Source of the DNA: Desulfotignum sp.
GTDB taxonomy: Bacteria; Desulfobacterota; Desulfobacteria; Desulfobacterales; Desulfobacteraceae
DNA length: 37,293 nucleotides
NCBI GenBank assembly: GCA_011389555.1
Contig: JAABUD010000202.1
Coordinates: 1-37,293, forward strand
Direction: 5' to 3'
Part shown: positions 20,925 to 37,293 of the stretch, one piece after another
How the letters are laid out: each line of letters begins with the position of its first letter
Position numbering within the stretch: the stretch's first letter is position 1
Made by a program: the position numbers and the translations under genes
Notes under the pieces: generated by a model
Told to the model about the DNA's origin: nothing
Databases searched by the model: none
The model's input: only the letters and a program-made list of their open reading frames with translations

Positions 20925-21116
20925 AAACGAGCGCAATTTATGAACCGCTAGCGTTTGAACGTTACAACTGACTGTCCGGATGACTGGAATGAGCATCTAT
21001 CCGCCCTGAAAAGCTTCAGACTGTGCGATCGCTTCACCCATTGTCCAAACCGCGGAACGTGAAAAATATGCTTTTTTCACATTTGCATGATCACATATTA
21101 CGGAGATAAAATTTCA

Positions 21117-21932
21117 ATGGCATTGGATCCATCCTTTCTGGGCCGTCTGATTGCAATCGGCGGCAATGAAGACAAGGCAGGTGAATTGATCGTACTCAAA
21201 CGGGTGGTTCTTGAAACCGGCAAAAAAGACTACAACGTCGGTATCATCACCACGGCAAGTGAAGATCCTGAACAGCGCGGCAAAGATTATCATCGCGTGT
21301 TTTCCGCTCTGGGTGCGTCCAGGATAGACATATGCAATATGAAAGAAAGGAGTCAGGCAAACGATCCAAAAACAGCCGCAAAAATCGCGGATCTGGATTT
21401 GATCTATTTTACGGGGGGAGACCAGTTACGACTGACAACCATTTTGGGGGGGACAAAGGTGCTGGACGCCATCCAGGCGCGTCTGGAGAAGGGCGCGCTG
21501 ATTGCAGGCACCAGTGCCGGGGCTGCCGTGTTTTCCGACACCATGATCTATGAAGGCAAAAGTGAGGAAGGGCTGTTCAAAGGCAGTGTCCTTTCAACCC
21601 CCGGATTCGGTTTTGTGGGTAATATCATTTTTGATACCCATTTTATGGCAAGGGGCCGTATCGGGCGGTTGATTCAGATTGTCACTTCCAATCCCACCTG
21701 TATCGGCGTGGGTATCGGTGAAGATTGCGGTGTTGTTCTCAAGGGAGACGGGATTGCCGAAATTGTGGGTACCGGCCAGGTGATTATTGTTGACGGAAGC
21801 GGTATCGGGTATTCCAATATCATGAATATCCAGCCGGGAGAGCCGATTGCCGTAGAAAACGTTCGAATCCATTCGCTGGTGGATGGATATGGATATGATT
21901 TTAAAACAAGACGGTTTCTTACGCCATCGTGA
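21117..21932 (+). CDS. cphB: Cyanophycinase
   Basis: Serine-type exopeptidase that degrades cyanophycin to beta-Asp-Arg dipeptides. The ATG at 21117 (MALDPSFLGRLIAIGGNEDK) is chosen because GGAG lies 11 bases upstream; an ATG at 21087 has no such site. The 271 residues match the family. Visible motifs are the N-terminal IAIGGNEDK, FTGGDQLRL near 102, the nucleophile elbow GTSAGA with Ser133, and a DTHFMARGRIGRL segment near 175. It lacks an export signal and so is an intracellular depolymerase. The synthetase gene starts 13 bases downstream. Confidence 0.95.
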   Translation: MALDPSFLGRLIAIGGNEDKAGELIVLKRVVLETGKKDYNVGIITTASEDPEQRGKDYHRVFSALGASRIDICNMKERSQANDPKTAAKIADLDLIYFTGGDQLRLTTILGGTKVLDAIQARLEKGALIAGTSAGAAVFSDTMIYEGKSEEGLFKGSVLSTPGFGFVGNIIFDTHFMARGRIGRLIQIVTSNPTCIGVGIGEDCGVVLKGDGIAEIVGTGQVIIVDGSGIGYSNIMNIQPGEPIAVENVRIHSLVDGYGYDFKTRRFLTPS

Positions 21933-21945
21933 GTGAAGGGTAGAT

Positions 21946-24555
21946 ATGATCGAGATTAAAGAATTACGAGCATTGCGCGGTCCCAATAGACATACGCGGC
22001 ATACCGCCATATTCATGGTCCTGGACATTGGCGCCTATGAGGAGCTGCCTTCAGATAAAATACAAGGGTTTTCAGGCCGCTTGTTGACATTGATTCCAAC
22101 GCTTCAGGAACACGAATGCTCCATCGGAAAACCCGGTGGTTTTATTCAGCGGCTTGAACGAGGCACCTGGGCCGGTCACATTATAGAACATATCGCCATT
22201 GAGCTTCAGTGTCTGTCCGGGATGGCCGTCGGATACGGCAAAACCCTGGATACATCACAAAAGGGAATGTATATTGTGGTTTTCCGGTACCTTGTGGAAT
22301 CTGTGGGGTTACAGGCGGCAAAAGAAGCGGTCGCTTTGTTTGAAGCCGTTGCTCAGGGCAAATCGTTTAATATCAACCAGGTGATTGCCGATCTCAAGGT
22401 GTTGCGGGAAGACCACATGCTGGGGCCTACGACCTGGAGTATTGTCAAAGAAGCCCAATCAAGGGGCATCCCTTTTATCCGGCTGAACGAAGACAGCCAT
22501 ATCCAATTGGGCTATGGCGCGTATCAAAAACAGATTCAAGCCTCCATAACCAGCCATACGTCGGCCATTGCCGTGGAAACCGCCGACGAAAAAACCAGGG
22601 TCAAGACATATCTGAAAAGAGCCGGCATTCCGGTTCCGGACGGCCGGGTGGTTTTTTCTGAGGATGAGGCCCTGGCTGCTTTCAAAGAACTGGGCACTGC
22701 CGTTGTTGTCAAGCCGGATGTGGGGAATCACGGCAACGGGTCCACCATCGATGTGAAGGATCCGGATCAGTTGAAAAAGGCGTTCCATGCCGCCCGTGCC
22801 TATCACCCCGATGTGATTGTTGAAGCCTATGTCAGCGGGGGTGATTTCCGTCTTCTGGTCATTAATGGCAAATTTGTTGCCGCGGCAAAAAGAGAGCCGG
22901 CCCATATCATTGGCGACGGCAGATCCACGATCCATGATCTCATTGAAACCGTGAATTCAGACCCCCTTCGCGGGTTCGGGCATGAACGAGTGCTCACCCG
23001 GATCGAGGTCGATGACATGACCCGACGGCTGTTGTCCTTGAAAGGCCTGTCGATGGAGTCTGTTCCGGAAAACCGGGAGAAGGTCTATCTCAAGGCCACG
23101 GCCAATCTCAGCCAGGGTGGCACGGCCACGGATGTCACGGATGAGGTGAGCCCGGATATCCGGTTCATGGCGGAGCGGGCCGCCCGTATTATCGGGCTGG
23201 ACTGCGTTGGTATCGATGTCCTGGCAAACGACATCTCGCTTCCTTTAGAGGCTTCCGGCCTCAAGGTGGTTGAAGTGAATGCCGCCCCGGGGTTCAGAAT
23301 GCACCTTGAACCCACAAAAGGGCAGTCCCGGAATGTTGCCGCGCCCGTTGTGGATATGCTTTTTCCCATGGGGTACACCCAGGTCCCTGTTCTGGCCGTG
23401 ACCGGAACCAACGGTAAAACAACCACCTGTAAACTGGTTGCGCATACGTTGAAGTATTCCGGAAAAATCGTCGGCCTGACGTGTACCACCGGTATTTTAC
23501 TTGACGGCAAACCGATTGTATCCGGAGATTACAGCGGCCCGGAAGGGGCCGGGATCGTTGTCAGGGAACCATCCGTGGATCACATCGTGCTGGAAGTGGC
23601 CCGCGGGGGCATCGCAAGACGCGGCTTAGGCGTCAGTGAAGTGGATGTGGGGGTTGTGCTCAATATTGGCGAGGATCACTTGGGTAATGACTGGATAGAG
23701 ACCCGGCAAGATCTGTGCATGGTAAAATCCACGGTCGTGGAGGCTGTCAAGGAAACAGGAATTTCTGTTTTAAACGCGGATGATGAAATGACCATGGAAA
23801 TTCTGGATCGTGCCCGGGGAGATGTTATTTTGTTTTCGTTGGACCCGGAAAATCAAACGATGAAAACCCATATCGAAAATGGGGGCACGGCGGTCACGGT
23901 GGTTGACCGGAATGTCATTATCCGGGAACGTGAACTGGATGTCATCATCTGCACGCTGGAAGAAATTCCCATTACATTCGGCGGAATGATCGATTTCAAT
24001 ATTTCAAACACCCTTGCCGGCATCGGTGCGCTGCATGGTGTGAACATTCCCGTGGAACAGATTCGAAACGGCATTATGACATTTCATCCATCCCCCAATC
24101 AAAACCCCGGCCGTATGAATTTATTTGATTTCCAGAAATTCAAACTCCTTTTGGACTATGGACATAATCCGGAATCCGTCCGTGCCATGGCCGGGTTGTT
24201 GCCGCGGCTCTCGCCCGGGAGAAAGGTCGCGTTGTGCCACGGGACGGGAAATCGTACCACCGCGCAAATCATTGATTATGGAAAGGCCCTGGCGCTGGTG
24301 TACGATTATATCCTGCTCACCGATTTTGACCCCCGGAACAGACCGGCCGGGGAGACCACGGCCCTGGTTTATGAGGGATTGATGCAGGCGGGTTTTGAAA
24401 AAGAACATATTGAAATCGTTCCGGATCCGGACAAGGCCGTGGATACGATTTTTTCACGGGCCCGGCAAGGGGATCTGCTGGTTATCCAGCCGGATGATCT
24501 TGAACCGGTCATGAGTCAGATCCTGGAACGATTTCGGGAAATGGTGGCAGGATAG
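21946..24555 (+). CDS. cphA: Cyanophycin synthetase
   Basis: ATP-dependent ligase that builds the Asp-Arg polymer cyanophycin, a nitrogen and carbon store. The 869 residues hold an N-terminal domain (1-160), an ATP-grasp domain (KPDVGNHGNGST near 253-265, then VIVEAYVSGGDFRLLV and VNAAPGFRMHLEPT), and a Mur-ligase-like domain starting with the P-loop VTGTNGKTTT near 485-494, followed by GEDHLG and LLDYGHNPESV. All modules of CphA1 are present and uninterrupted. AAGGG precedes the ATG. It is co-directional with cphB, 13 bases apart, so polymer synthesis and mobilisation are probably co-transcribed. A short hairpin GGTGGT/ACCACC follows the stop (24561-24574), without a T-tract. Confidence 0.97.
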   Translation: MIEIKELRALRGPNRHTRHTAIFMVLDIGAYEELPSDKIQGFSGRLLTLIPTLQEHECSIGKPGGFIQRLERGTWAGHIIEHIAIELQCLSGMAVGYGKTLDTSQKGMYIVVFRYLVESVGLQAAKEAVALFEAVAQGKSFNINQVIADLKVLREDHMLGPTTWSIVKEAQSRGIPFIRLNEDSHIQLGYGAYQKQIQASITSHTSAIAVETADEKTRVKTYLKRAGIPVPDGRVVFSEDEALAAFKELGTAVVVKPDVGNHGNGSTIDVKDPDQLKKAFHAARAYHPDVIVEAYVSGGDFRLLVINGKFVAAAKREPAHIIGDGRSTIHDLIETVNSDPLRGFGHERVLTRIEVDDMTRRLLSLKGLSMESVPENREKVYLKATANLSQGGTATDVTDEVSPDIRFMAERAARIIGLDCVGIDVLANDISLPLEASGLKVVEVNAAPGFRMHLEPTKGQSRNVAAPVVDMLFPMGYTQVPVLAVTGTNGKTTTCKLVAHTLKYSGKIVGLTCTTGILLDGKPIVSGDYSGPEGAGIVVREPSVDHIVLEVARGGIARRGLGVSEVDVGVVLNIGEDHLGNDWIETRQDLCMVKSTVVEAVKETGISVLNADDEMTMEILDRARGDVILFSLDPENQTMKTHIENGGTAVTVVDRNVIIRERELDVIICTLEEIPITFGGMIDFNISNTLAGIGALHGVNIPVEQIRNGIMTFHPSPNQNPGRMNLFDFQKFKLLLDYGHNPESVRAMAGLLPRLSPGRKVALCHGTGNRTTAQIIDYGKALALVYDYILLTDFDPRNRPAGETTALVYEGLMQAGFEKEHIEIVPDPDKAVDTIFSRARQGDLLVIQPDDLEPVMSQILERFREMVAG

Positions 24556-30422: not shown

Positions 30423-31129
30423 AACATAAGGAAAAACCGGCTTCCAAAATTTCCACCACCCAGACCAATACCAACCGGAAAAAAAAGACGGAAGGCAGTG
30501 CCGGCCCCTGGGGTATCAATACCTCATTGTTCAAAAAAAACGATACCACCCTGATTATTGCCGGTGCCCTGGTCGTGACCCTGATCGTGTTTTTTGTTTT
30601 TTTTCTGTCACCCGGGTCCCGGACCGACCAGGCACCGTCCTCTCTTGAAAACACCCGGTTCCAGGATATTGAAACCCGCCTGACAGACCTGGAACAATCG
30701 TTTGCCGCCCTGACGTCAAAACTGGACACTCAACTGGCCTCTATGGCGGACAGCACAACACGGCCCGATGTGGACATGGATACGGCCCTGGCACCGGTCC
30801 GCAGGCAGATGGCCACACTGGAATCCGGTGTTCAGGTCAAAATGGATGCGTTGACCCGTCAGATAGCCCGCCTGGAAGAAAAAAACATCCAGGAAAAAAC
30901 CCCCATCGTTACCGTGAACTCGGACATTCAGGAAAAAAAGGCCCCTGAAAAACCCGCGGCCCCGGCTGACAGCGCTGAAACCACTGCGTTGTTTCATACC
31001 GTTCAAAAAGGGGAAACCCTGTGGCGTATTTCCCGGAAGTACGACATCACTGTTGACCAGCTGCGCCAGTTGAACGGCCTGGCCCCTGATGCGGATATCT
31101 ATTCGGGCACAAAACTGCGGGTAAAGTGA
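30419..31129 (+). CDS. Membrane-anchored LysM domain protein
   Basis: A 236-residue protein. The start at 30419 is preferred over an in-frame codon at 30356, because AAGGAG lies 7 bases upstream and it gives the usual 4-base ATGA overlap with the preceding gene. A basic N-terminus is followed by a transmembrane helix (LIIAGALVVTLIVFFVFFL, 45-63), a coiled coil rich in Leu/Asp/Gln (residues 80-155), a Pro/Ala linker, and one LysM domain (FHTVQKGETLWRISRKYDIT near 192-235) that should bind peptidoglycan. It links the inner membrane to the cell wall. It is the last gene of the murJ operon and its 3' end overlaps the opposing megasynthase gene by 31 bases. Confidence 0.9.
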   Translation: MKHKEKPASKISTTQTNTNRKKKTEGSAGPWGINTSLFKKNDTTLIIAGALVVTLIVFFVFFLSPGSRTDQAPSSLENTRFQDIETRLTDLEQSFAALTSKLDTQLASMADSTTRPDVDMDTALAPVRRQMATLESGVQVKMDALTRQIARLEEKNIQEKTPIVTVNSDIQEKKAPEKPAAPADSAETTALFHTVQKGETLWRISRKYDITVDQLRQLNGLAPDADIYSGTKLRVK

Positions 31130-34100
31130 TCCCTGGTTGTTTCATGTCCGGCAGGCACGAACGCCAGCCCGAAATTCTTCATTTCATAAATCGTGCGGCC
31201 ATCCACACACAGGGCCCCGTCCGCCACGGCCGAAAAAATATCGTTTTCCCGGGATACCTGACGGATATGGGTGTGAACCGTGACCTCTTTGTGGGTCGGG
31301 ATGATCTGCCCCCGGTACACCCATTCATGGGTGTCGCCCAAAATCTGTGTCGGGGTATGGGTGGCCGGGTCGATTGCAACGGTTTCCAGTAAAAAATACC
31401 GCACGGTCTGCAAAAACGATTCAATGCCCAGAGATCCCGGGCAGACCGGATCCTGATAAAAATGCGCATCAAAGAACCATTCATCGGGTGTCACGGTTTT
31501 TCGGGCACGGATATATCCATGGTGGAAGTTTCCGCCGGATGGATCCAACACGTCGATGACATCGATCATCCGCAGGGCATCCCCGGGCATGCCCGTATCC
31601 GGACCGGTAAAACGATCTGCCGGTGTCCGGGGCGGATGGGATGAAAACACCTTGACCGGTTCTCTGGAAACAGAGGGGGTTTCGGAAACCAGGCGGCTGT
31701 TCGGAATGCCTTTTTGACTGGCCAGGGCCGGGGCCGTGAAAAATCCGAAGCGGGTGGCGCCTTCATAGACTTTTTGGCCATGGTTGTTCACCTGGATGTC
31801 GAACGACTGAAGAATCATGTCTCCGGCCCTGGATACGTCGGTCATCCGGACCCGGACCAAAAGGGTGCCGGCGTCCCGGGGCACCTCCCGGAGGCATCGG
31901 GCCGTGCCGCCCAGGTTTCGAAAATGCAGCCGGTCATCACTGTGCAGTGCGGAGCCGGCATACGCAGCCAGCCATCCACACGGCTGCAAAGCGATCTCCA
32001 GCAGAATGCAAAACGGCAGGGTGCGGGTGTGATTGGCCGTGAAATACCAGGCATCCACGGGCACATCGTATGCGGTTTCAATCCATCCGTCCGGCTGCAT
32101 CTGCCAGGGGACATGATCCGCCGTCAGCACCCGGTCCATGAAAAAATAGGGGGGCCTGGGCAGGCGGGCGATCTGCCGGTCTTTATCAAATATCTGGTAT
32201 CGGGAACCAAATGCGTCGGACGGGTTTCCCTGGGCAAAGGCCAGAATGGCTTTTTTGTCAAATAACGGCGCTGGCTTGAATTTGTCGTGCAGCGTGGTGT
32301 CCACCACGGCTTCAAATCCCATGACACTGGCTGTCACGTTGCCGCGATCATCCGAAAAGGTGAAATATCCCTTGATCTGATGGTCTGTGTTTTCATTGAC
32401 GGTAAACCGGATATGGATGCCGGCATTTTCGGCCGGCACCTGTCGAAACGAGGAATAAATCCGGAGCCCGGCCGCAAAACTGGGCAGACAAACCTGTTTC
32501 CGGGTTTCCCAGGTCCAGAGGATGGCGGCCTGAAACGCCGCATCCAGCAGCAGGGGATCCGTGATCCAGTGAGTCTGCTGCGGTGTGTCCAGCCAGTGGT
32601 CCGGGGAAGGGGCCTGCGTGGCGGTCACTTCGATTCCTTTTTCCGAGATTCCGGAAATGGCGGTAATGGCCTGGAGGTCTTTGCCATGAAACAATACCGT
32701 GTCATACGCCGATTTTACACTCAATCGGCAGGGACTGAGATCCATGCGGTTTTTGCCGGACAACACGGGCGGGTCCGGCAGGGTGTTTTTCAACACGGCC
32801 GTGGCCGTGGCATGGGTGACAGAATCGTTGCTGTCAGACAGGGATGTCAAAGACATCGGAACAAGGTATTGGGTGTCAGTACAGGTGCATCGGCCCAAGT
32901 TCACCCCCAGAAGGATGTCCCGGTTTTCAGGCCGGACCCCTTTTACCAGCCGCAGATCATCCAGCCCGGTAAACACCAGGCCCGGGTGGTTTTTTTCAGC
33001 CGCATGGGCCATGATTTCAGCCATCAGGGCAAACGGCAGGACCGGTTCATGGTTGATCTGATGGGATGCGAGGATGGGAACAGTCCTGCGGCTGATCACC
33101 ATCTGGCCGACCCGGTTCAGTCGGGGAGGAGTTTTCTTTTTCCGGTCCGATGAAGGGGCGGTAATGACAACTTCCGTGTGATCCCGGTCCGGATTCGCCA
33201 TCTCCCGGATCAGTTGCCGGGCACCGGCTGACAGAGGAATCAGTCCGATCCCTTTTTGGGCAAATACCTGTTTGAGCCCGTCATGAACCATGCCCCCGTC
33301 CCAGGGCCCCCAGTTGATGGCCAGACATTTGCAATCAGGTTTTTTTGCCGCCATGTCATCCATGTATTTGTTGAGCACCTCATTGGCCATGGCGTAATCG
33401 CACTGGCCCGGATTTCCGGTTCGGGCCGCAATGGATGAAAACACGATCATGTATTTCAATGGATCGGTCTGTGTGGCCTGAATCAATGCGTTCAATCCGT
33501 TTACTTTGGTGTCAAACACCCGGTTGAACTGGTCGGGATGTTTCTCCACAATCCATTTGTCTTCCAGCACGCCGGCACCGTGGATAATCCCGGAAACAGG
33601 GGCGTTGAACCGGGTGCGGACTTGATCCAGAGCGGTTTGAACCGCTTCGGGCTGCCGGATGTCCGTGGAAACATACACCACTTCGGATCCATGGGACCGG
33701 ATTTGTGCCAGGGTCTGCTGAATCTGGCGGTTGGCACGGATGGCCTGAAATTTTTTTTCCAAATCGGCCGGGGTGGGCTTTTTCCCGGCAAAGTCATGGG
33801 TGAGGATCGCTTTTTTCAATTCAGCCGGATCAGTCAGGGAGTTTGCCCAGTCCGGTTCATCAGAGGGGGCACGAGATCGTCCCAGCAGAACCAGGGTCAA
33901 GGGGCCGGTTTTTGCCAGTTCTTGTGCACAGGCGGCGGTCACTCCCCTGGCACCGCCGGTGATCACCACCACGTCATGGGGTGCCAGGTTCAGGCGGCCC
34001 GGTTGGGCCGGTACCGTCTCCAGGGCGGGGATCCGGCAATGATCCGTGTCCAGCCCCATCTCCACAGGTCCCTGGGTCATCATCAATGCCGCGGCTGCAT

Positions 34101-37100
34101 CCGCACATTCAAAGCAGGCATCTGCATCACCGGGCAGATCCAGGGCATGGCACAGCACCTCTGGCCATTCCAGGGCCGCTGTTTTGGCCAGACCGGCCAG
34201 GCCGCCATACTCGGGCAGGGTGTCAAACCGGTAGGGCAAAATGCCGAATCCCCCGCCGGAAAAAGTGATGGTTGCCAGAAACGCCCCTTTTTGAGCGGCA
34301 GCTGTCTGAAGATGTGGACCGTTTTTGTGGATCAGGGCAAACGCGGCTTTTAAAAATGCAATGGCCTGGGGCTTGTCAGAATGAGACCATTGGTTCTGGA
34401 CCATCACCAGACCGGCGGCATCGGTCAGGTCCGGGATGTTTTCAGGTGTCAGGTCGAAAAGTTCGGCGTGCTGGCCGTGTTTGTGAAACGCCTGCTTCAA
34501 CCGGTCGGCCATCCCTGCCTGATCCCGGGTGATAAAAATTTTTCCGGTTTCAGGCAGCTGGATTTTTGAGCCGTTGAAAAAACGGACCTGTTGAATGGGA
34601 ACGGTTTTCAGATGGATTGTCTGACGGATCAGATCCGGGATTTCGGGCGATTTTCGGGCATCATCCCTGTGTGAAAAGTTTTTTTTTACGTCCGCCTCTG
34701 GCGGACACGGTGTCGGGTCCAGAAAGTGAACCATGTCCTGGATGGTTTTCAACCGGGTCATGTCATCTCCGGACAGGCGGGATGCCCTGTCTCCCAGCGT
34801 TTGTTCCAGCCGGGATAAAATTTCCACCCGCTTGATGGAATCGATCCCCAGATCCGATTCCAGGTCCATACCGGGTTCCAGCATCTCTTCGGGAAACCCC
34901 GTCAGTTCACTGATGATGGTGACAATCACATTCATCACCCCGGAACCGGGGCTCGGGTCTGAAGACGGCGGAACAGCGGTCTGGGCATCGGCCCCGGTAT
35001 CGGCCCCGGCGGCGGTTCCGGCGGCGGTTCCGGCGGCGGTTCCGGCGGCAGCCCCGGTATCGGGTTCAGGTGTGTCAGCGTCAGGTGTGTCGGATGTACG
35101 GGAAAGCGGGGTGTCCGAAGATTCAGAATCGGGTGAGTCAGCGGTTGCGGATGAAATGGCCCGGCAGATATCGGTCAAGGTTCTGGCGGTGCCGATGTTT
35201 TCCGTGGTCAACCCCCGGGTGTCGGGCAGCTGTTTTTCCAGTTCGGAAATGATTTCTACTTTTTTGATGGAATCCACCCCTAAATCCGATTCAATATCCA
35301 TGTCCGGTTCCAGCATTTCTTCGGGGAACCCGGTCAAACGGCTCACGATGTCAAACAAAATGGACTGTATCTTTATTGACGGGCGGGCAGGGGAGGGGGC
35401 CGACGGCACCGGCGGGTCCGAATGTTTACTTTGGGGCGGTGTGCCACCATTCACTTTGTCGGGCAACGAGGGTTTGTCAGGCAAAGAAACGGCGGCCCGG
35501 GGCGTGCTGATCTCAGCCGGCCGGGTCGTTACAGGCTCTTTGGCCGGTACCGGCGGGGTGCCATCCACAAACTGCCGGGTTTGAGACATCATGTCTGCCA
35601 GGGTCTGGGTCGCCCGGGCCTGGGTATCGAGAAATTTTTCATGGGCCCGGGCGGTCTGGGCCTGCAATGCCTGCATGGCTTCCAGGCCCTTGTGAACCAG
35701 GTGCATGGCCTGTCCGGTATCTGCCCCATACATGGTGGTGGGGGGGGCATCGGTGTTTGATTCTTGTTTCAAAGCGGGGGAAGATGATGACAAGGGATGC
35801 ATATCAGGTCCTTGTTGTTGGGCCGGTTTCGTTTCCGGCCGTAACTGTTTCTGGGTTTCGGACGAACCGGGAAAAGACGAAACATCGGCTTTGCAGGCGC
35901 AACCCCCGGTTTGAGGTTCAGAATGATTCAGGGGCCGGAACGATCTTTTTTCGATTCCGGGTCCGGGGTTGGCACCGGACAGCGGTATGCGCATGCGTTT
36001 CGGGGCCAGTGGCGGTACCGGGTCTTCCCATGGGGTCAGATCCACGGCAAAGCCTCTGGCTGCCAGATGACACAGGGCATGGGCCAGATCGGCAAGCCCG
36101 GATTTTTTTCCACTCGAGGCATCCAGGCCGATGGCAGTGATGGGATCCGATGCCAGTATTTTTTTTGCCAGACCGGTCAAAACGGTTTTGGGACCGATCT
36201 CCATGAAAAAATTCACCCCCTGTTCATGCATGGTTTCAATGTTCTGCTGGAAACACACCGGGTGCATGAGCTGATGCCCCAACAGCGACTTGATGGTGTC
36301 AGGGTCAGTGTCATACACGGAACCCGTGGTGTTGGACAGCACCAGAACATCGGTGGGGGCAATGGATTGATCGGCCACAAACCGGTGAAACGGGGCAGCG
36401 GCATCTGCCACCAGACCGCTGTGAAACGCGGCTGCCACGGGCAGTTTGACACTTCGGATCTTGTTTTTCCGACACCATTTCATGGCTTGTTCGATCGCCG
36501 GAGTCGGGCCGGACAAGACACCCTGGTCCGGGCTGTTCCGGTTGGCCAGCACCAGGTCGGAAAACCGGTCGTTGATCCAGGTTTCAATGTCGGTCAAAGG
36601 GGCCTGAACCGCCAGCATGCTGCCGCGGTCCGTTCCCGTGTCACCGGCATGGGCCATGTGCTTTCCCCGGACGGCCGCCAGGGTCAGCAGAGTGGTGTCA
36701 TCCATCCAACCGGCGGCATGCAGGGCCGGCAGTTCCCCGAAACTGTGGCCACAGGTCATGTGCGGCCGGACATTGAATCGTTTGAGCACCTGGATCATGG
36801 CAAGGGATACCGCACCGATACTCATCTGGGCGGTCCTTGTATGTCTGAGCCGGGATTCGGACACCGATTTTTCCTGGCAATGCAACGGCAGGACAAACAT
36901 CCGGTCCGCCAGATCCGGAAAAGGGGTTTCCGGATCCACAGGGTTCGGGGAATGGGCCGTGAAGATGTCCTGTGCCAGATCCAGAACGGCCATGGCTTCA
37001 GGAAAGACAGCAAACAGGTCTTTGCCCATATCCGGATACTGGCTGCCCTGTCCGGGAAACAAAAACCCCAGTTTTCCCTGAACCGGGCCGGATTCAAAAT

Positions 37101-37293
37101 ATATGGGCCCGGCTCCGGATTTTTTCTGTTCAATCATGTCCCGGGCTGTTGCCGCCAAAGCAACGGGATCATCGGATTTTTCCATCACCATGAGCAGGCG
37201 AAAATCATCCCGGGTGTGAAAGGTTTTCCTGGATTCAGCGCATTCCCTGGAAACAAGATGCTGCCTTTCGTCATCATCGGGTGAAAAATCGGG
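31099..37293 (-). CDS. PfaA/PfaC-like polyunsaturated fatty acid or polyketide megasynthase, 5' end outside window
   Basis: An open frame runs from the stop at 31099 through the right edge, more than 2,060 codons; numbering below starts at the internal Met at 37191. Domains in order: acyltransferase 40-345 (LFPGQGSQYPDMG, GHSFGEL with Ser150); Pro/Ala/Thr linker; ACP1 605-660 (GVDSIKKVE, Ser641); Gly-Thr-Ala repeat linker 712-730; ACP2 753-800 (GIDSIKRVE, Ser785); ketoreductase 1070-1300 (VVITGGARGVT, FSSIAARTGN, Tyr1266, Asn1270); PKS dehydratase-like 1365-1640 (His1377 before PVLP, LLLDAAFQA); two FabA-like hotdogs 1685-1830 (CILLEIALQPCGWLAAY) and 1900-2015 (DAHFYQDPVCPGSLGIE, His1910). 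The first parts match PfaA and the last two PfaC. A ketosynthase is expected to the right but is not visible. The product is unknown; a secondary lipid is likely. Confidence 0.9.
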   Translation of the reverse strand, partial: PDFSPDDDERQHLVSRECAESRKTFHTRDDFRLLMVMEKSDDPVALAATARDMIEQKKSGAGPIYFESGPVQGKLGFLFPGQGSQYPDMGKDLFAVFPEAMAVLDLAQDIFTAHSPNPVDPETPFPDLADRMFVLPLHCQEKSVSESRLRHTRTAQMSIGAVSLAMIQVLKRFNVRPHMTCGHSFGELPALHAAGWMDDTTLLTLAAVRGKHMAHAGDTGTDRGSMLAVQAPLTDIETWINDRFSDLVLANRNSPDQGVLSGPTPAIEQAMKWCRKNKIRSVKLPVAAAFHSGLVADAAAPFHRFVADQSIAPTDVLVLSNTTGSVYDTDPDTIKSLLGHQLMHPVCFQQNIETMHEQGVNFFMEIGPKTVLTGLAKKILASDPITAIGLDASSGKKSGLADLAHALCHLAARGFAVDLTPWEDPVPPLAPKRMRIPLSGANPGPGIEKRSFRPLNHSEPQTGGCACKADVSSFPGSSETQKQLRPETKPAQQQGPDMHPLSSSSPALKQESNTDAPPTTMYGADTGQAMHLVHKGLEAMQALQAQTARAHEKFLDTQARATQTLADMMSQTRQFVDGTPPVPAKEPVTTRPAEISTPRAAVSLPDKPSLPDKVNGGTPPQSKHSDPPVPSAPSPARPSIKIQSILFDIVSRLTGFPEEMLEPDMDIESDLGVDSIKKVEIISELEKQLPDTRGLTTENIGTARTLTDICRAISSATADSPDSESSDTPLSRTSDTPDADTPEPDTGAAAGTAAGTAAGTAAGADTGADAQTAVPPSSDPSPGSGVMNVIVTIISELTGFPEEMLEPGMDLESDLGIDSIKRVEILSRLEQTLGDRASRLSGDDMTRLKTIQDMVHFLDPTPCPPEADVKKNFSHRDDARKSPEIPDLIRQTIHLKTVPIQQVRFFNGSKIQLPETGKIFITRDQAGMADRLKQAFHKHGQHAELFDLTPENIPDLTDAAGLVMVQNQWSHSDKPQAIAFLKAAFALIHKNGPHLQTAAAQKGAFLATITFSGGGFGILPYRFDTLPEYGGLAGLAKTAALEWPEVLCHALDLPGDADACFECADAAAALMMTQGPVEMGLDTDHCRIPALETVPAQPGRLNLAPHDVVVITGGARGVTAACAQELAKTGPLTLVLLGRSRAPSDEPDWANSLTDPAELKKAILTHDFAGKKPTPADLEKKFQAIRANRQIQQTLAQIRSHGSEVVYVSTDIRQPEAVQTALDQVRTRFNAPVSGIIHGAGVLEDKWIVEKHPDQFNRVFDTKVNGLNALIQATQTDPLKYMIVFSSIAARTGNPGQCDYAMANEVLNKYMDDMAAKKPDCKCLAINWGPWDGGMVHDGLKQVFAQKGIGLIPLSAGARQLIREMANPDRDHTEVVITAPSSDRKKKTPPRLNRVGQMVISRRTVPILASHQINHEPVLPFALMAEIMAHAAEKNHPGLVFTGLDDLRLVKGVRPENRDILLGVNLGRCTCTDTQYLVPMSLTSLSDSNDSVTHATATAVLKNTLPDPPVLSGKNRMDLSPCRLSVKSAYDTVLFHGKDLQAITAISGISEKGIEVTATQAPSPDHWLDTPQQTHWITDPLLLDAAFQAAILWTWETRKQVCLPSFAAGLRIYSSFRQVPAENAGIHIRFTVNENTDHQIKGYFTFSDDRGNVTASVMGFEAVVDTTLHDKFKPAPLFDKKAILAFAQGNPSDAFGSRYQIFDKDRQIARLPRPPYFFMDRVLTADHVPWQMQPDGWIETAYDVPVDAWYFTANHTRTLPFCILLEIALQPCGWLAAYAGSALHSDDRLHFRNLGGTARCLREVPRDAGTLLVRVRMTDVSRAGDMILQSFDIQVNNHGQKVYEGATRFGFFTAPALASQKGIPNSRLVSETPSVSREPVKVFSSHPPRTPADRFTGPDTGMPGDALRMIDVIDVLDPSGGNFHHGYIRARKTVTPDEWFFDAHFYQDPVCPGSLGIESFLQTVRYFLLETVAIDPATHTPTQILGDTHEWVYRGQIIPTHKEVTVHTHIRQVSRENDIFSAVADGALCVDGRTIYEMKNFGLAFVPAGHETTRDHFTRSFVPE
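35008..35043. repeat. Three perfect 12-bp repeats encoding Gly-Thr-Ala-Ala linkers
   Basis: GGCGGCGGTTCC repeats without error at 35008-35019, 35020-35031 and 35032-35043, with a partial fourth copy. The minus strand reads a GTAA tetrapeptide repeat between the two ACP domains. The repeat is prone to slippage, which would change linker length in steps of four residues without breaking the frame. Confidence 0.9.

Follow-up and report, generated by a model that had tools for sequence, protein, structure and literature searches.

Contig JAABUD010000202.1 of Desulfotignum sp. (family Desulfobacteraceae; GenBank assembly GCA_011389555.1), analysed here as a window of 37,293 nucleotides that is the entire contig (C194), breaks off at its right end inside a megasynthase gene, whose minus-strand frame runs free of stops over 2064 aa from that end to a stop at 31099. 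By sequence comparison, the encoded chain is the PfaA subunit of a Pfa system, the system of polyunsaturated fatty acid (PUFA) synthases, and bears a FabA-type dehydratase unit that in the other families of the order ends the PfaC subunit. In a reading to which we give an even chance of being right, this chain would make, or help to make, the membrane's saturated and mono-unsaturated acyl chains, taking over from missing enzymes of the dissociated fatty acid synthase (FAS II), and together with PfaC would feed OleABC. The window comes from a fragmented 3.79 Mb metagenome-assembled genome (MAG) with a completeness of 93.7% and a contamination of 5.5%. Numbers beginning with G, C, L and f are our handles for genomes, contigs, loci and families.

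The PfaA chain and its front end

Pfam searches of the 2064-aa piece recovered Acyl_transf_1 (aa 77-382), two PP-binding domains, KR (aa 1109-1332), PS-DH (aa 1522-1661) and two FabA stretches. This bears out the domain order given in the original prediction, namely an acyltransferase (AT), two acyl carrier proteins (ACP), a ketoreductase (KR) and a dehydratase (DH) followed by two FabA-like hotdog domains; every motif listed there was right, and the segment ALQPCGWLAAY, located at 31960-31992, is invariant in alignments of relatives (n=5 and n=7). The top NCBIfam model for this partial piece is TIGR02813 (PfaA) at 665.5 bits, where the curated cut-off for membership is 1010.1 bits and the window piece was scored separately from, and unjoined to, the piece of the gene on a second contig, C228, which reached 728 bits. 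Uninterrupted orthologues pass the cut-off, with 1317.1 bits for a 2581-aa chain from the same genus (G062) and 1417.1 bits for that of Desulfobacterium autotrophicum HRM2 (G058).

The ATG at 37191 was rejected as the true start because the frame extends into a ketosynthase (KS) on C228. The overlap of the two contigs (Table 1) carries 28 mismatches in 744 positions, which, between two contigs of one assembly, looks like strain variation or a strain mixture. The KS on C228 is supported by Pfam, and directly upstream of it lies a gene for a PfaD-family enoyl reductase (ER; L013:2368-4086, 622.6 bits against a cut-off of 449.25). In G062, a genome of five contigs, C194 and C228 both align along one unbroken stretch, in which pfaD (558 aa) is followed by the 2581-aa chain in the order KS-AT-ACP-ACP-KR-PSDH-hotdog-hotdog. 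The original prediction had looked to the right of the window for a KS, a pfaD-like ER, a chain-length factor (CLF) and a phosphopantetheinyl transferase (PPTase). The first two are on C228, and the region upstream is thus not KS-less; the CLF is in a separate PfaC, and a PPTase gene was seen only next to another synthase, in a relative (G014).

The order KS, malonyl acyltransferase (MAT), tandem ACP and KR that marks PfaA is spread over the two contigs, with the KS on C228 and the remainder in the window, and is found in one chain in G062, G056, G021 and G058. The KS has an intact Cys-His-His triad, with DAACASS, EAHGTGT and GHTKAAAG in its own translation, aligned in G062, HRM2 and Desulfococcus oleovorans Hxd3. 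The arrangement of PfaC, in which a KS-CLF precedes FabA-type dehydratases in one chain, was not found here, there being no CLF on the PfaA chain.

Table 1. Features of the PfaA-type gene in the window (positions count from the first nucleotide of the contig).
Feature	Position	Strand	Evidence
PfaA-type megasynthase with C-terminal FabA-type dehydratase unit; 5' end (KS) lost at contig end	31099..37293	-	Open frame; TIGR02813; KS on C228
744-base overlap with own contig C228 (L013:1-744), which continues into KS and pfaD	36550..37293	-	96.2% identity, gapless; both contigs collinear with the uninterrupted G062 gene
AT (malonyltransferase-type)	36148..37065	-	Pfam Acyl_transf_1, aa 77-382; GHSFGE at 36733-36750
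ACP 1	35152..35361 (approximate; bounds drawn round the DSIKK motif, on the model of ACP 2)	-	PP-binding; DSIKKVE at 35254-35274
ACP 2	34720..34929	-	PP-binding, aa 789-858; DSIKRVE at 34822-34842
KR	33298..33969	-	Pfam KR, aa 1109-1332
Polyketide synthase-type dehydratase (DH_PKS)	32311..33105	-	Weak PKS_DH_N and PS-DH; His and Asp in 7/7 aligned rows
Hotdog 1 of the FabA-type unit (pseudo-dehydratase), holding ALQPCGWLAAY (31960-31992)	31759..32163	-	PF07977, 33.3 bits; groups with PfaC hotdog 3
Hotdog 2, the core domain of this unit, with His and Glu retained	31177..31587	-	PF07977, 124 bits; groups with PfaC hotdog 4; FabA by sequence and fold

A single dehydratase unit and its place in the order

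Both of the FabA-like hotdog domains of the original prediction are present, but in sequence and in a structural model they look like a single FabA-type dehydratase unit. The predicted structure of the pair (predicted local distance difference test, pLDDT, 90.4) has two similar helix-plus-sheet repeats, and the sequence matches to solved FabA structures are confined to its second half (residues 208-353 of 361); by fold, a chain holding two copies of FabA matches best, over 352 columns, ahead of single FabA chains. Hotdog 1 lacks a conserved catalytic His (H in 7 and R in 20 of 31 aligned rows), and in hotdog 2 both His and Glu are kept in all 31. The pair is therefore of the double-hotdog kind, a pseudo domain and a core domain with the catalytic His and Asp/Glu in the second, and this fits the pseudo-plus-core layout described for the DH_FabA domains of PUFA synthases (PMC9667614). 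The structure model, the FabA matches and the conservation of His and Glu led us to reject a reading of the pair as two dehydratases. As one unit, it amounts to one of the two dehydratase units of PfaC.

In other families of the order, all 14 loci with a whole hotdog end (a fifteenth, L114, was excluded as cut) encode a PfaC of the layout KS-CLF-(AT) plus four FabA-like hotdogs, 7 of these 14 have an ole-like gene within the stretch, and PfaA stops after PS-DH in all four loci compared (L076, L110, L111 and L113). In a FastTree of 94 hotdogs, read from its topology without regard to branch support and holding no polyketide synthase (PKS) dehydratase rows, the first hotdogs of all 12 PfaA-borne pairs group with the third hotdogs of PfaC, and the second hotdogs, again 12 of 12, group with the fourth. 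Hotdogs 1 and 2 of PfaC, even those encoded in the same genome, stand apart from both groups. Since the hotdogs group with numbers 3 and 4 of the other families' PfaC and not with those of their own, the last dehydratase unit of PfaC is now on PfaA. The claim that PfaA parts are combined here with PfaC parts is supported by this grouping, the unit being PfaC-borne in the order's other families. The same prediction had set ordinary PKS dehydratases against PfaC as the possible kin of these domains, and here Pfam calls both hotdogs FabA, not PS-DH, the tree itself being drawn without ordinary PKS dehydratases.

Of 76 loci taken from titled records, 55 carry the unit on the PfaA side (five of them, L164, L165, L167, L170 and L197, showing the first hotdog only) and 19 at the C-terminus of PfaC, and 2 were assigned to neither place. 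Two PfaA-side loci, L168 and L172 (genomes G102 and G166), belong to another family of the order (f18), the record of L168 being titled Desulforapulum. One change between PfaA and PfaC placement suffices in an IQ-TREE of 69 pairs (75, minus 7 shorter than 300 aa, plus the pair of the window), and with a support of 89/56 for the dividing branch a single origin of the relocation is likely, though not firmly shown. We had also considered that the presence of the pair tracked the loss of FabZ, and this idea was dropped, as the pair occurs widely in the order and the difference lies in where it sits.

The chain is like the marine and thraustochytrid PfaA/OrfA proteins (TIGR02813) in its KS-MAT-ACPs-KR-DH_PKS order and its pfaD partner, but it adds the FabA-type unit, which in those systems sits on PfaC/OrfC. 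The closest hotdog pair among the sequences compared is the C-terminal one of PfaC/PfaBC from other families, for example Desulfococcus oleovorans Hxd3 (Type K of Shulse and Allen). In Desulfobacteraceae that pair sits on PfaA instead, and PfaC retains the first unit only.

Distribution in Desulfobacteraceae

Matches to the 2064-aa query were obtained in at least 77 of the 86 family genomes and in at least 41 of the 42 good ones (completeness of at least 90%, contamination of at most 5%), and nine of the 86 had no match to the chain among the matches listed. Members identified from titled records are Desulfotignum (nearest), Desulfobacula, Desulfospira joergensenii, Desulfobacter vibrioformis, D. 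latus and D. postgatei, Desulfocicer vacuolatum and Desulfamplus magnetovallimortis; a further member is D. autotrophicum HRM2 (G058; we take DSM 3382 to be this strain). The gene pfaD precedes the chain in all six family loci examined (L053, L054, L057, L059, L061 and L067). Judged by these sequences, the PfaA-borne unit is the usual architecture in Desulfobacteraceae. Among genomes of the same genus as Desulfobacter latus, G021 encodes the chain whole, and G012 and G014 encode it in two open reading frames (ORFs), split between the second ACP and the KR. The chain is also split in Desulfamplus (L175, L176, L179, L180 and L196), where no PS-DH was found and the FabA-type unit follows the KR directly; the unit may therefore perform all dehydrations in that genus.

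Fatty acid synthase II genes

Our survey of FAS II comprised fabZ (TIGR01750), fabF (TIGR03150), fabD and acpP. None of the 86 family genomes has fabZ above the cut-off of 155.15 bits, the best hit being 153.1 bits (G026). By comparison, fabZ is above the cut-off in 9 of 14 control genomes, which are all the controls with any match, and in 188 of 242 genomes of an even draw from the order, none of the draw's 10 family members giving a match. Hits resembling fabZ but below the cut-off occur in 14 of the 86 family genomes, and in the two whose surroundings were read (G025 and G026) they are clustered with genes for stand-alone KS and ACP. For fabF, the same 10 family members gave no match among the matches listed, and at least 184 of the 242 genomes are above the cut-off. 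The family has fabD above the cut-off in 6 of 86 genomes (a figure without an order control) and the free ACP, acpP, in 76 of 86.

Gene neighbourhoods were compared with acpP and fabF placed by profile searches and gltX, glyA, rpiB, comEB, ribD, nusB and fabG recognised by eye. In four loci from other families, fabF directly follows acpP in all four, three have a recognisable fabG before acpP, and three have gltX close by. In four family loci (the source genome, G014, G021 and G062), acpP has gltX on one side and rpiB or glyA on the other, leaving no space for fabG or fabF. Within the source genome, 93.7% complete as noted, only four FabA/FabZ-type domains (PF07977) were found, all of them in the PfaA chain and PfaC. 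The original prediction that this anaerobe makes an unusual lipid is thus too narrow: the architecture is widespread in Desulfobacteraceae, and with FabZ and FabF absent, ordinary membrane fatty acids are indicated at least as much as an unusual lipid.

PfaC, Ole-like genes and other synthases

PfaC of the source genome (L010) is a separate chain of 1435 aa with the layout KS-CLF-hotdog-hotdog, followed by OleA-, OleB- and OleC-like genes, the last recognised by eye. PfaC followed by oleA- and oleB-like genes was seen in all seven family loci read, with an oleC-like gene in six. A search for PfaC returned at most 74 family genomes, at least two of which (G015 and G017) match other large synthases. 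The CLF lacks the active Cys, and the KS triads of both PfaA and PfaC are intact. The notion of one condensed enzyme in the original prediction is therefore not supported, as only one of the two dehydratase units of PfaC is on the chain and PfaC itself stands beside oleABC-like genes. In the known hydrocarbon pathway of Shewanella and Geobacter, Pfa products feed Ole (PMC3098273, PMC6463001). Here pfaC is likewise directly before oleA-, oleB- and oleC-like genes, but pfaA and pfaD are at another locus, PfaA bears the additional unit, and the family lacks FabZ and FabF.

A second megasynthase, with the layout ER-KS-KS-AT-KS-ACP3-KR-DH_PKS, is 3812 aa long in G014 (L051:4638-16076), where a PPTase gene adjoins it, and the source genome has its own copy at 2-9286 of L011 (contig C110). 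No FabA-type domain was found in it by Pfam. Its second KS keeps the Cys and has lost both His, and its third shares only 14-23% identity with the other KS domains compared. The KS of the HRM2 PfaA chain is 68% identical to the PfaA KS of Hxd3, and the corresponding figure for the first KS of the second megasynthase is 34-37%. Shulse and Allen described a Type S cluster in D. autotrophicum HRM2, noted that fabA and fabZ were missing, and suggested a core role for the cluster (2011; PMC3098273). This Type S synthase, from the same group of organisms, is probably the second megasynthase and not the PfaA chain, a guess from the PPTase gene and the KS identities.

Other synthase genes were also seen. 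Contig C243 of the source genome encodes a 2302-aa PfaA-like chain (L012:5055-11960) with KS-AT-ACP-KR-PSDH and a PlsC-type acyltransferase end, which at 1062.6 bits is above the PfaA cut-off. On C27 a chain cut by the contig end begins with a nitronate-monooxygenase-like domain and a KS (L009:2-3274). G062 has a 2481-aa chain with ER-KS-AT-KR-like parts (L056:6426-13871). C253 (L014) has several ketosynthase matches in short ORFs, possibly an aryl-polyene-like cluster, with no FabA/FabZ domain matched. Away from the synthases, at 21087-24555 of the window, a peptidase S51 (cyanophycinase-like) gene adjoins a cyanophycin synthetase-like gene, which suggests a nitrogen storage polymer.

Proposed role and alternatives

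Taken together, the chain and PfaD appear from their domains to hold every activity of an elongation cycle. In the evenly balanced reading given at the outset, KS_A would condense and KR would reduce, after which either DH_PKS and PfaD would complete a saturated step or the FabA-type unit would introduce a cis double bond; the AT of the chain would stand in for FabD. With PfaC, the chain would make polyunsaturated acyl chains that OleABC could join into long-chain hydrocarbons. As these parts are present and no other FabA-type domain was found in the source genome apart from those of PfaC, we infer that the chain and PfaD would suffice for ordinary saturated and mono-unsaturated chains. In PUFA synthases, DH_PKS with an enoyl reductase serves saturated steps, DH_FabA forms cis double bonds by isomerisation, and KS_A prefers chains of other lengths than KS-CLF does (PMC9702510). 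The MAT of PfaA can take the place of FabD in vivo (PMC8174602). D. autotrophicum, whose genome carries the same chain, contains 16:1 and 18:0 when grown on H2 (PMC4969296), and it therefore very likely makes both itself.

Several observations weigh against this reading. The second megasynthase is equally widespread, with matches in at least 74 of the 86 family genomes and in 42 of the 42 good ones, and could be the core synthase, leaving the PfaA chain to hydrocarbons; once this was found, an earlier claim of the PfaA chain as the clear core synthase was lowered, and the two may share the work. In Hxd3 (G154, L076) PfaA is ordinary and PfaC has four hotdogs, yet fabF was not found at the cut used, and the fabZ hit, at 1.7e-44, is one that from its E-value we place just under the cut-off; relocation and FAS II decay are therefore not strictly coupled. 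In the order as a whole, 54 of the 242 genomes are without fabZ above the cut-off and 58 without fabF, some of them incomplete genomes, and this is far beyond the 10 family members. Within f18, G102 shows neither gene, and in G166 fabF is likewise lacking and the fabZ hit is weak (4.2e-22). The fabZ-like hit of the family genome G026 falls barely below the threshold.

The most serious alternative, which we consider possible though the less probable account, is that the chain serves solely as the PfaA subunit in a polyunsaturated-hydrocarbon pathway running from PfaA, PfaD and PfaC to OleABC, and that the second megasynthase, probably Type S, makes the core membrane fatty acids. The spread of that megasynthase and the PPTase gene beside it in G014 agree with such a division, as do the Ole-like genes that follow PfaC and the precedent of Pfa genes feeding Ole. 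It would, however, leave cis-unsaturation without oxygen unexplained, since the second megasynthase has no FabA-type domain by Pfam and the only ones found in the source genome are in PfaA and PfaC. The separate loci of PfaC and PfaA also count against it.

Core fatty acids could instead come from uptake, from reversed beta-oxidation or from a FAS II too diverged for our profiles, the Pfa chain then being secondary. The confinement of the survey to fabZ, fabF, fabD and acpP, and the sub-threshold fabZ-like hits, the best only about two bits short and two of them in clusters with stand-alone KS and ACP genes, would fit this account. We regard it as unlikely, given that no family genome exceeds the fabZ cut-off and every matching control does, and that 16:1 in D. 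autotrophicum grown on H2 speaks against a need for uptake (PMC4969296).

An ordinary modular or iterative PKS that merely resembles PfaA is highly improbable and was rejected: AT, ACP, KR and PS-DH domains are common to PKS, but the orthologues in G062 and G058 score above the PfaA cut-off, pfaD adjoins, and the last two hotdogs are FabA-like by Pfam and group with those of PfaC in a tree that had no PKS rows. An assembly artefact, to which a window that stops inside the gene and a mismatched overlap in a fragmented MAG might point, was dismissed as next to impossible, because relatives carry the gene whole, uninterrupted and with the same neighbours in G062 and as the same chain in G056, G021, G058 and the titled-record loci.

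Implications

A core role for a Pfa-like cluster has already been suggested for one species, D. autotrophicum (Shulse and Allen 2011, PMC3098273). In the portions available to us of the literature on fatty acid, polyketide and PUFA synthases of Desulfobacteraceae, neither a transfer of the dehydratase unit nor a family-wide lack of FabZ and FabF was encountered. We tentatively propose, at somewhat less than even confidence, that Desulfobacteraceae, a family of common marine sulfate reducers, have abandoned dissociated fatty acid synthesis and build their membranes with type I megasynthases descended from PUFA synthases. The enabling step would have been the move of the cis-forming dehydratase from PfaC to PfaA. 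Together with PfaD, this would have yielded a synthase of two genes able on its own to make saturated as well as unsaturated chains, with a second single-chain synthase sharing the load.

These organisms are important in marine sulfate reduction, and their lipids are used as biomarkers. If the family does live without FabZ, FabF and FabD, it would represent a type I solution to membrane lipid synthesis beyond the FAS I of Corynebacterineae. If the proposal is true, the 2011 guess on D. autotrophicum becomes testable, and the family would offer a natural experiment on what turns a PUFA synthase into a general fatty acid synthase, namely the transfer of one domain.

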